A stretch of DNA of 64,000 nt, from assembly GCF_001761545.1 (NCBI RefSeq), contig NZ_CP017326.1, positions 310,001 to 374,000 of the forward strand. The letters are read 5' to 3'. The position numbers and the translations under genes are program-made. The notes under the pieces were generated by a model. It searched no databases and had not been told where the DNA came from. It saw nothing but the letters and a program-made list of their open reading frames with translations. Below, piece after piece: positions 19,830 to 60,263 of the stretch; position 1 is the first letter of the stretch, and each line of letters starts with the position of its first letter. This stretch comes from Weissella soli. GTDB lineage: Bacteria > Bacillota > Bacilli > Lactobacillales > Lactobacillaceae.

Positions 19830-20051
19830 TTATACTTAGGGCACGGATATGTTTAAGTTGAGTTGGACAATCAGCGACGTCATGGTGGTGCAAATGACGC
19901 AAAACTAACTTAAGTGCTCCCGTATATTTGTTCATGAAAATGGACCGTGGGTCAGCGTTAGCGACAGTTAAAGAGGTAATGAGAGTAATCCATTGCAAGT
20001 AAAGTGGTACCGCGTGTAGGCGTCTTTACTAGCAAGGGGTTGCTTTTTTAA
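19830..20051 (+). promoter_or_regulatory. T-box riboswitch controlling alaS
   Basis: An extended -10 (TG-T-TATACT, ending 19836) begins a leader that holds the T-box sequence TGGTACCGCG (20005-20014). The antiterminator stem TTGC-A-AGTAAAG/CTTTACT-A-GCAA surrounds it. The rival terminator AGCAA-GGGG-TTGCT plus T6 ends at about 20049, and the two structures share GCAA, as expected for a switch. Uncharged tRNA-Ala should stabilise antitermination. A candidate Ala specifier GCT lies at 19916-19918; this codon choice is tentative. Confidence 0.88.
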
Positions 20052-20079
20052 TTTATTTAAAAGAAGAGGTTTTATAAAG

Positions 20080-22725
20080 ATGAAGCAACTATCATCTGCT
20101 GAGATTCGCGATATGTTCTTGCGATTTTTCGAAAGCAAAGGTCACAGTATCGTCCCATCACAATCATTAGTTCCTAAAGATGATCCATCATTATTGTGGA
20201 TTAATTCAGGTGTCGCAACATTGAAGAAATATTTCGATGGCACTGTCATTCCTGAAAATCGCCGTATTACCAATGCCCAAAAGGCATTACGGACCAACGA
20301 TATTGAAAATGTTGGACACACCGCACGCCACCATACCCTATTTGAAATGATGGGTAACTTCTCAATCGGTGATTACTTCAAAGACGAGGTCATTCCTTGG
20401 GCCTGGGAATTATTGACGAGCCCAGAATGGTATGGCCTGGATCCAGAAAAGCTGTACGTCACGGTTTATCCGGCCGACACAGTTGCCAAGGAAAAGTGGT
20501 TGGAAGTCGGTATGATCCCATCACATATTTACGAAAATGACGATAATTTCTGGGACATCGGTGAAGGACCTTCTGGACCAGACACGGAGTTGTACTACGA
20601 TCGAGGCGAAGCATGGAACAACACTGAGCATCCTGAGGAAAACTACCCAGATGGGGACAATGAGCGTTTCTTGGAAATTTGGAACATCGTGTTCTCACAG
20701 TTTAACCATTTACCAGGATTGACCGATAACGCGACTTACCCAGAATTGCCACATAAAAACATTGATACTGGGTTAGGCCTTGAACGATTAGTCTCTGTCT
20801 TCCAAAATGCGCCCACTAACTTTGAAACTGACTTGTTCTTGCCAATTATCCGCAAGACAGAAGAGTTATCAGGGGCTAGGTATGGTGAAGACGCCACGCT
20901 GGATATTTCATTTAAGATTATTGCCGACCATGCCCGGTCAGTGACTTTCGCGATCGGGGATGGCGCCTTACCTTCAAATGAGGGTCGGGGTTACATTATC
21001 CGCCGTTTGTTACGACGGGCTGTTTTGCACGGCCGCAAGTTGGGGATCAATGGGCCATTTTTGAACCAATTAGTACCAGTGGTGGGTGAAATTATGCATT
21101 CATACTACCCAGAAGTGCAAGAAAATGCCGACTATATTGCATCAATTGTGACAGCTGAAGAGGCCCGTTTCAATAAGACATTGTCAGATGGGTTGTCATT
21201 GTTAGACGGCGTGATGGCTGATGCAAAGGCTCAGGATGGGATCATCGCTGGCGCTATTGCCTTCAAGATGTATGATACGTATGGTTTCCCTTACGAATTG
21301 ACCGAAGAGGCTGCCACTGACGCTGGGTTAACGGTAGATCGGGCGGGCTTTGATGCCGAGATGAAAGCACAACAAGAACGGGCCCGGGCTGCCCGTGGCA
21401 ATGCATCCTCAATGGGGGTTCAAAATGCCTTATTGACTGACTTAACGACCGCTTCAAAGTACGTTGGTTGGTCAGAATTGTCCGTTGAAGCCGCGCAATT
21501 GGAAAATATCATTGCTGATAATCAATTAGTTAATGTGGCTGAAACTGGTCAGGTCCAAGCCATCTTTGATATCACGCCGTTCTATGCTGAAATGGGTGGT
21601 CAAGTACCTGATAAGGGTACGGTGACGAATACCGCTGGTGACATTGTGGCAACGGTAGCTGATGTGCAAGTCGCACCAAATGGGCAACACTTGCACACAT
21701 TGGATGTCCAAGGTCCTTTGAAGGTGGGTGAAACCTATCGTTTGGATGTTGATCTGGCCTATCATGCGGCTATTTCAAAGAACCACACCGCAACGCACAT
21801 GCTTGACCAAGCGTTACGTAATATTTTGGGTGAACACACAACCCAAGCCGGTTCATTGGTGAATGATAAACTATTGCGTTATGACTTCACATACAACGGG
21901 GCGGTTTCAGAAGCTAAGCTCCAAGAAGTTGAAGATTTGGTCAACGCTAAAATTATCGAAAACTTGCCAATTTCATGGATTGAGACCGATATCGAGTCGG
22001 CCAAGCAACTCGGGGCCGTGGCGGTCTTCACTGAGAAATACGGTGAAAAGGTGCGTGTCGTTTCAATTGGGGACTTCAATATCGAATTTGATGGTGGCAC
22101 CCATGCTAAGACGACGGCCGAGTTAGGTATGTTTAAGATCGTTTCTGAGCAAGGTACGGGTGCGGGCGTTCGTCGGATTGAGGCCGTAACTGGTCAAGGT
22201 GCCATGAATTATGTCAAGGACCATGATGCTTTGTTGAAAAATGCGGCTAGTTTGGTGAAGGCCCCACAACTCTCAGAAGTGAGCGATAAGATTGAAGCTT
22301 TGCAAGCACAACTGAAAGAGGCTGAACGGCAAGTGGCCTCATTGGAAGCTAAATTGGCTAGTCAAGCAGCTAAGTCAGCCTTCAATGATGTGAAAACCGC
22401 TGGTAACTTCACATACATTACGACTGAATTAGCGGTTGAATCAATGGATGCCTTGCGTCAAACCGCTGATAACTGGAAGCAAAACCAACCATCAGATGTT
22501 TTGGTGTTAGCCGCGAACTTGGGTGAAAAGGTCAACTTACTTGTAGCGGTGGCGCCACAGGCCATCGCGGCTGGGGTGAAAGCCGGGGATTTGATTAAAG
22601 CCATTGCCCCTGCGGTTGGTGGTGGCGGCGGTGGTCGTCCCGATATGGCCCAAGCTGGTGGTAAGAATCCGGCTGGTATTCAAGAGGCCTTTGCGCAAGC
22701 GGTTACTTGGTTGGCAGCTAAGTAG
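20080..22725 (+). CDS. alaS: Alanyl-tRNA synthetase
   Basis: AlaRS charges tRNA-Ala and clears Ser- and Gly-tRNA-Ala by editing. The 881-residue length is normal. The catalytic core (1 to about 450) begins [17 protein letters not shown] and has the class II motif regions; the editing domain follows, with HTATH at 569-573, and the C-terminal C-Ala domain ends with a Gly-rich stretch near [13 protein letters not shown]. The second zinc motif, normally C-GGTH, reads FDGGTH, so the zinc-ligand Cys is replaced by Asp at residue 671 while His 675 is kept. Asp can sometimes bind zinc, so weaker but not absent editing is possible. The gene is T-box controlled. Confidence 0.97.
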
Positions 22726-58319: not shown

Positions 58320-60263
58320 ATGGCAGATGTTAAAATCACATTTCCCGATGGTGCAGTGAAGGAATTCGCTGATGGTGTTACGCCAATGGCCATCGCTGAG
58401 GGAATCTCAAAGTCATTGGCAAAAAAGTCAGTGACGGCAAAGTTAGATGGTGCCTACGTCGGTATGCATGATGCCATCCATCAAGATGGTACCTTTGAAT
58501 TGGTCACGAAAGACCAACCAGAGGCTTTGGATTTATTGCGTCATTCAACTTCACACTTGTTGGCGCAAGCTTTGAAGCGTCTATACCCAGACATGCACTT
58601 TGGGGTGGGCCCATTTATCAGTAACGGTTTCTACTACGATACGGATAATGCTGAAGGCCAGGTTTCAGTGGAACAATTCCCAGAAATTGAAAAGGTCATG
58701 AAAAAGATTGTCGCTGAGAACTTGCCCATTGTTTCTCGTGAAGTTTCACGTGCGGAAGCTTTGGACATGTTTAAGGACGATCCATACAAGGTTGAATTGA
58801 TCAATGATTTACCAGCCGATGAAAAGATTACCATTGCGGTGCAGGGTGAACACGTCGAATTGGATCGTGGTGGTTTGGTACCATCAACCGGTTGGATTAA
58901 GTTCTTTAAGTTAACGTCAGTCGCTGGTGCATACTGGCGTGGTAAGTCATCTAACCCAATGTTGCAACGTATCTATGGTACGGCATTCTGGTCACAAGAA
59001 GATTTGGACGCTGAAATGGTCGCCCGGGCTGAGGCTAAAGAACGCGATCACCGTAAGATTGGTGCTGATCAAGACTTGTTCTTTACCTCGCAAGAAGTGG
59101 GTTCAGGCTTGCCAGTTTGGATGCCAAACGGTGCTGCCATTCGCCGGACGTTGGAGCGTTACATCATTGATCGTGAATTAGAAGATGGGTACCAACACGT
59201 TTACACACCCGTTTTGTCAAACTTGAACTTGTACAAAACCTCTGGTCACTGGGATCACTATCATGATGACATGTTCCCACCAATGGATATGGGTGATGGT
59301 GAATTCTTGGAATTACGACCAATGAATTGCCCATCTCACATTATGGTTTATAAGCATCACCCACGCTCATATCGCGAATTGCCATTGCGCATTGCCGAAT
59401 TGGGAATGATGCACCGTTATGAGAAGTCAGGTGCCTTGACTGGTTTGTCTCGCGTGCGTGAAATGACGTTGAACGACGGGCACACATTTGTCATGTTGGA
59501 TCAAATTGAAGAAGAATTTAAAAACATTTTGAAGTTGATGATGGCCGTCTATAAGGACTTTAACATCACAGACTACCGTTTCCGTTTGTCATACCGTGAC
59601 CCTGAGAATACTGAAAAGTATTTCGATGATGATGAGATGTGGGAGCGTGCGCAAAAGATGTTGAAGGCTGCCATGGATGACCTTGGCTTGGAGTACTTCG
59701 AAGCTGAAGGAGAAGCTGCCTTCTACGGACCAAAGTTGGATGTTCAGACTAAGACAGCTTTGGGTGGTGAAGAAACTTTGTCAACCATCCAATTGGACTT
59801 CTTGTTGCCACAACGCTTTGACTTGAACTATGTTGGTGCGGATGGTGAGCAACATCGTCCAGTCATGATCCACCGTGGTATTATCGGTACGATGGAACGC
59901 TTTACGGCCTATGTCACTGAGATGTACAAGGGGGCCTTCCCAACTTGGTTAGCACCACATCAAGTCCGGATTATTCCGGTTAACCGTGAAGCACATGGTG
60001 CATATGCGGCGGCCTTAGCGGACAAGTTGAAGAAGCAAGGTGTGCGTGCTGAGTACGAAGGCCGTAACGAAAAATTAGGGTACCTCATCCGTGATGCCCA
60101 AGCGTTGAAGATTCCATACACGTTGGTCATTGGTGATGAAGAGACAAACAATAATACAGTCACTGTCCGGCGTTTTGGTTCAATGGATACTGAAGTGAAG
60201 AGTTACGAACAATTTGAAGCTGATCTCTTGGCTGATATTGCGAACTTCTCAAAAGAGGCTTAA
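58320..60263 (+). CDS. thrS: Threonyl-tRNA synthetase
   Basis: ThrRS charges tRNA-Thr and normally clears Ser-tRNA-Thr with its N2 domain. The 647 residues show an N-terminal TGS domain (1-62), the N2 domain with H75 and H79 in [12 protein letters not shown], a class II core with motif 2 near [17 protein letters not shown], the zinc Cys in RPMNCPSH, and the anticodon domain. The other N2 catalytic segment, normally D-L-C-R-G-P-H-V, reads ELDRGGLVP: Asp 182 and Leu 186 replace the Cys and His. Editing is therefore probably weak or lost. The start follows AAGGAG. Confidence 0.97.

Follow-up and report, generated by a model that had tools for sequence, protein, structure and literature searches.

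The alanyl-tRNA synthetase (AlaRS) of Weissella soli is probably an active enzyme with a rebuilt editing metal site, in which the ligand set has changed from Cys-His3 to Asp-His3. This reading, drawn from sequence comparison, is favored by a strict two-state pattern of Cys or Asp at residue 671, by fixation of Asp at the level of genera and by several separate changes from one state to the other. It is further favored by accompanying changes at residues 633 and 464, by continuing constraint on the editing domain and by the lack of a free-standing AlaX protein. In the proposed mechanism, Asp671 would replace Cys as a metal ligand, and the metal would grip a misattached serine, as in known enzymes, with Ser-tRNA(Ala) still hydrolyzed in cis. 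Trp or Ala at 633 and Trp at 464 would re-fit the pocket around the carboxylate. An Asp variant of the AlaRS editing site is new to the literature searched, in which a C666D AlaRS was not found. Open-licence work on AlaRS editing in Leuconostoc and Lactobacillus, and on loss of threonyl-tRNA synthetase (ThrRS) editing in lactobacilli, likewise held no report of it.

Architecture of W. soli AlaRS and Its Editing Site

The window, a 64,000-nucleotide stretch of a 1.68 Mb genome, carries a complete alaS gene (20080–22725, + strand) encoding 881 amino acids. The PF01411 catalytic domain, the SAD domain (PF07973) and the C-Ala/DHHA1 domain are all found in one chain, all above their curated cut-offs, as in bacterial AlaRS. 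Its identity to full-length AlaRS in the searched genomes of the family is 53–79%. The editing domain, comprising about residues 459–710 (21454–22209, + strand), was delimited by comparing a predicted model with AlaX structures: AlaX-M and AlaX-S superpose on model residues 459–709 with Z scores of 20–23 and an rmsd of 2.1–2.8 Å.

Alignment with AlaS of E. coli MG1655 identifies all three editing-site His ligands expected of a bacterial AlaRS. The HTATH motif (residues 569–573; 21784–21798, + strand) supplies the first two, His569 and His573 (E. coli His564 and His568), and His675 (codon 22102–22104, + strand) corresponds to the fourth ligand, His670. In addition, Gln589 matches Gln584. The remaining ligand, Cys666 in E. 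coli, is replaced by Asp671, encoded by GAT (22090–22092, + strand), such that the canonical HxxxH...CxxxH site with Cys is absent from W. soli AlaRS. The preliminary description, which had read F-D-G-G-T-H at this motif with HTATH and His675 intact, was therefore correct.

Upstream of alaS, at about 19960–20060, AAGTGGTACCGCG is followed by a possible terminator, an arrangement resembling the end of a T-box leader. Rfam returned no match at its threshold for the region upstream of the gene.

Asp671 Is Fixed in 11 of 40 Sampled Genera

Among 155 AlaRS sequences, residue 671 is Cys in 118 and Asp in 37, with no other residue observed, and the three His ligands are invariant. This set includes some near-duplicates; the set used for the tree consists of 103 distinct rows, 70 with Cys and 33 with Asp. 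A DNA pattern for E-[LF]-D-G-G-x-H, run against 301 Lactobacillaceae genomes, matched 100. Six of these matches (G032, G144, G177, G224, G230 and G291) lie away from the AlaRS gene and were dropped, leaving Asp fixed in 11 of 40 sampled genera and present in 94/301 genomes. Those of the 94 that belong to an 80-genome subset were located inside AlaRS; the remainder were assigned to AlaRS because both their genera and their motif are shared with the located ones. Within the genus of W. soli, the motif is found in all 15 genomes and Asp in every AlaRS read, so Asp671 is not a chance substitution.

The Asp carriers include Leuconostoc lactis, L. palmae and Weissella viridescens; Lactiplantibacillus plantarum and L. 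nangangensis; and Lacticaseibacillus manihotivorans, nasuensis, jixianensis and camelliae. Cys is carried by, among others, Pediococcus, Levilactobacillus, Ligilactobacillus, Limosilactobacillus, Apilactobacillus, Companilactobacillus, Enterococcus and Streptococcus. The Asp pattern gave no match in 397 further genomes across the phylum; the Cys version of the same pattern matched 85 of 119 phylum genomes. No Asp-type AlaRS was found outside Lactobacillaceae in the order and class samples, leaving out four matches (G895, G883, G1065 and G1011). Two further matches from these samples (L236 and L240) were read and are not AlaRS, and another two (L241 and L242) have no motif-bearing open frame longer than 60 amino acids. 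The suggestion in the preliminary description that the change might be lineage-wide thus holds, and its reach is wider than proposed, extending to 11 genera and several origins.

One AlaRS gene, from a draft genome of genus g8 that is 91% complete (L219; G007, contig C11), is broken by stops and frame changes, through either sequencing error or real damage.

Repeated Origin of the Asp State

We built an AlaRS tree from an alignment with the trait columns taken out. Asp requires four changes on this tree: in the Weissella/Leuconostoc clade, in Lacticaseibacillus, in genus g33 and in Lactiplantibacillus. Grouping every Asp row in a single clade is rejected (AU p = 1.6e-5), as is a clade uniting Weissella/Leuconostoc, Lacticaseibacillus and g33 without Lactiplantibacillus (p = 0.006). 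All ten outgroup rows are Cys, so the likely direction is Cys to Asp, and on these sequences the switch apparently arose several times. Four changes are likewise required on trees built from either domain, editing or catalytic, by itself, although support from a single domain is weaker; spread of Asp by swapping of the editing domain alone is therefore not supported.

The switch from Cys (TGY) to Asp (GAY) takes two base changes. None of the residues reached in one step (Gly, Tyr, Ser, Arg, Phe and Trp) occurs at 671 in the 155 AlaRS, and both Asp codons are in use (GAT 29, GAC 8). Both features are as expected under selection on the residue itself.

Residues that Change with Asp671

The most marked accompanying change is at residue 633 (Trp in W. 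soli, codon 21976–21978, + strand; E. coli Thr628). This position is Thr in 113/118 Cys enzymes and in 0/37 Asp enzymes, which instead carry Trp (32) or Ala (5). Residue 464 (Trp in W. soli, codon 21469–21471, + strand; E. coli Tyr461) is Tyr in all 118 Cys enzymes and Trp in 31 of the 37 Asp enzymes. Ser566 (21775–21777, + strand), three residues ahead of HTATH, is present within the family in 89% of Asp enzymes versus 4% of Cys enzymes. Lacticaseibacillus offers a graded series, from A633/Y464 to W633/Y464 to W633/W464, and its Trp changes at the two positions appear to have arisen separately from those of Weissella/Leuconostoc. For the co-change at 633 there are three independent contrasts; nearly all run in one direction, but their number is too small for significance (p = 0.25). 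Archaeal AlaRS have Trp at the 633 position, so Trp here does not conflict with retention of the remaining ligands of the editing domain.

In the catalytic domain, most Asp enzymes, and none of the Cys enzymes of the family, have a short insert at about residues 213–216 (within GLTDN; 20716–20727). This insert is probably a clade marker.

The Editing Domain Remains Constrained and Has No AlaX Backup

Divergence of the editing domain relative to the catalytic domain has a ratio of 1.29 in Asp-type AlaRS and 1.18 in Cys-type AlaRS. For ThrRS the corresponding ratios are 3.68 where the editing site is lost and 1.51 where it is intact. The Asp-type editing domain is thus still constrained, its ratio being near that of the Cys enzymes and far below that of site-lost ThrRS. 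The slightly faster divergence of the Asp-type domain nonetheless counts against a remodeled site.

AlaX was not detected in any of the Asp genomes examined, W. soli included, which leaves these genomes with no backup from the AlaX family against Ser-tRNA(Ala). Compensation by AlaX is accordingly rejected for these Asp genomes; AlaX-like genes are confined to three Cys genomes. In these Cys-type Lactobacillaceae they lie at L220 (G035), L221 (G077) and G040:C19:261486, one of them in an open frame of 372 amino acids.

ThrRS Has Taken a Different Course

The preliminary description had also noted that a ThrRS in the same window lacks its editing Cys. This is so, and the last His is missing too: the motif of W. 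soli ThrRS (58320–60263) is LDRGGLV, against LCRGPHV in intact enzymes. In ThrRS of W. soli and its Weissella/Leuconostoc relatives, editing residues 75–79 and 182–186 show HSxxH retained, Cys changed to Asp and His changed to Leu (HHDL). This arrangement is conserved in 12/12 sequences read, and with a ratio of 1.57 the domain is not faster-evolving. The HHDL site may possibly be a second remodeled site rather than a product of plain decay.

All Lactobacillaceae sampled outside the Weissella/Leuconostoc clade (L123–L140 and L232–L234) have a destroyed ThrRS editing site. All four ligands are gone in nearly all of them, and the domain evolves at 3.7 times the core rate. The predicted outcome is a family-wide loss of Thr/Ser proofreading outside that clade. 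Genus g19 (L223 and L224), the sister of the W. soli genus in the AlaRS tree, has a complete HHCH site in ThrRS, unlike all sampled relatives in the family, together with an Asp-type AlaRS. Pediococcus and Levilactobacillus show the reverse, with a Cys-type AlaRS and a destroyed ThrRS site. The two states are unlinked across genera, so the AlaRS and ThrRS changes cannot be treated as one event, and the connection drawn between them in the preliminary description fails.

Alternative Readings of Asp671

Several bodies of evidence bear on what the Asp enzymes do. In E. coli, the C666A substitution abolishes deacylation of Ser- and Gly-tRNA(Ala) by AlaRS (PMC8857464), so Cys at this position matters, and this counts against a working Asp site. 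The same observation favors the view that Asp671 marks a dead site, with proofreading relaxed or lost in the Asp lineages, as do the slightly faster editing domains of the Asp enzymes and the tolerance of this family for some loss, ThrRS editing being gone in most members. We consider a dead site quite unlikely nevertheless, because Asp is the sole substitute, no other ligand varies, the editing domain diverges at a near-normal relative rate, compared with 3.7 for dead ThrRS domains, and the Asp state of AlaRS does not track the state of ThrRS. In naturally editing-dead synthetases of the Mycoplasma type (ThrRS, LeuRS and PheRS), several catalytic residues are missing from the editing site and the domain diverges freely; these do not provide a match, since here a single ligand is changed, and always to Asp. 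Relaxed proofreading, as raised in the preliminary description, is therefore not supported, with the three His and Gln589 conserved and ratios of 1.29 versus 1.18. Its further suggestion, that zinc binding by Asp may allow partial function, is consistent with these data. It is highly improbable, in turn, that Cys was removed to shield editing from peroxide. Several lactic acid bacteria make peroxide, which speaks for such an oxidative adaptation, but Streptococcus and other lineages, some of which produce peroxide too, keep the Cys in AlaRS. Genus g19 combines an Asp-type AlaRS with the sensitive Cys in ThrRS. According to work cited in PMC8857464, E. coli ThrRS loses editing once Cys182 is oxidized, whereas peroxide oxidizes Cys666 of E. 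coli AlaRS to sulfenic acid and leaves editing unaffected (PMC8857464). The case for oxidative adaptation made in the preliminary description is weak on this account.

Two other readings concern how an Asp site would work. As a special case of the remodeled site, Asp-His3 might be tuned to manganese or iron rather than zinc. Asp-His3 is the ligand set of the Mn/Fe superoxide dismutases, several Asp genera accumulate manganese, and loss of a thiolate lowers preference for zinc. However, Cys genera such as Pediococcus accumulate manganese as well, and a search of the manganese literature yielded nothing usable. We regard this metal switch as unlikely. The wider idea that a Cys-His3 zinc center has repeatedly been turned into an Mn/Fe Asp-His3 center in Lactobacillaceae, tying proofreading to an unusual metal economy, is doubtful to the same degree; the manganese/iron version is speculation resting on general knowledge of the family. 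It is very unlikely that the target of editing has shifted, for example toward weaker activity on Ser- and stronger activity on Gly- or D-Ala-tRNA(Ala). Three points would suit a shift: the role proposed for the editing-site metal in recognizing the serine hydroxyl (PMC8857464), the additional activity of T. thermophilus AlaRS on D-Ala-tRNA(Ala) (PMC6765224) and the change of residue 633 together with Asp. However, the W. soli genome encodes a DTD, an enzyme reported in T. thermophilus to remove Gly-tRNA(Ala), so there would be little need for stronger Gly editing.

Loss of AlaRS proofreading is regarded as costly, and the editing Cys is considered critical. E. coli C666A cells grow poorly, and the authors of that work doubted that AlaRS editing is lost in nature, whereas ThrRS C182A is harmless (PMC6918089). 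The split within this one family, with the AlaRS site kept and apparently rebuilt and the ThrRS site discarded, agrees with the greater harm of losing AlaRS editing in E. coli. If a remodeled, working site is correct, its recurrent fixation in common food bacteria, along with co-changing residues, would amount to a natural experiment on the roles of the Cys and the metal. It would also reveal the additional substitutions that allow Asp to be tolerated at this site, and whether a proofreading site can swap one metal for another.

Comparison with Known Systems

W. soli AlaRS shares with E. coli AlaS (His564/His568/Cys666/His670) its domain order, fold, three His ligands and the equivalent of Gln584, but has Asp for the Cys ligand, Trp for Thr628 and Trp for Tyr461. 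It is about 55–65% identical over the whole chain to the Cys-type AlaRS of related genera. The archaeal enzymes (A. fulgidus, 3wqy; P. horikoshii, 2zze) are alike in editing fold and in Trp633, but they retain the metal-site Cys (QACGGTH) where W. soli has Asp. Free-standing AlaX proteins (1wnu, 2e1b and 9iuw), which superpose on the editing domain as described above, have a site of the HxxxH...CxxxH type; in contrast, the W. soli domain lies in cis within AlaRS and carries Asp for Cys. A parallel to the change itself is the homologous editing domain of Weissella/Leuconostoc ThrRS, in which Cys is replaced by Asp at the matching position; there the last His has been lost as well, making the HHDL site a different and more severe change than that in AlaRS.
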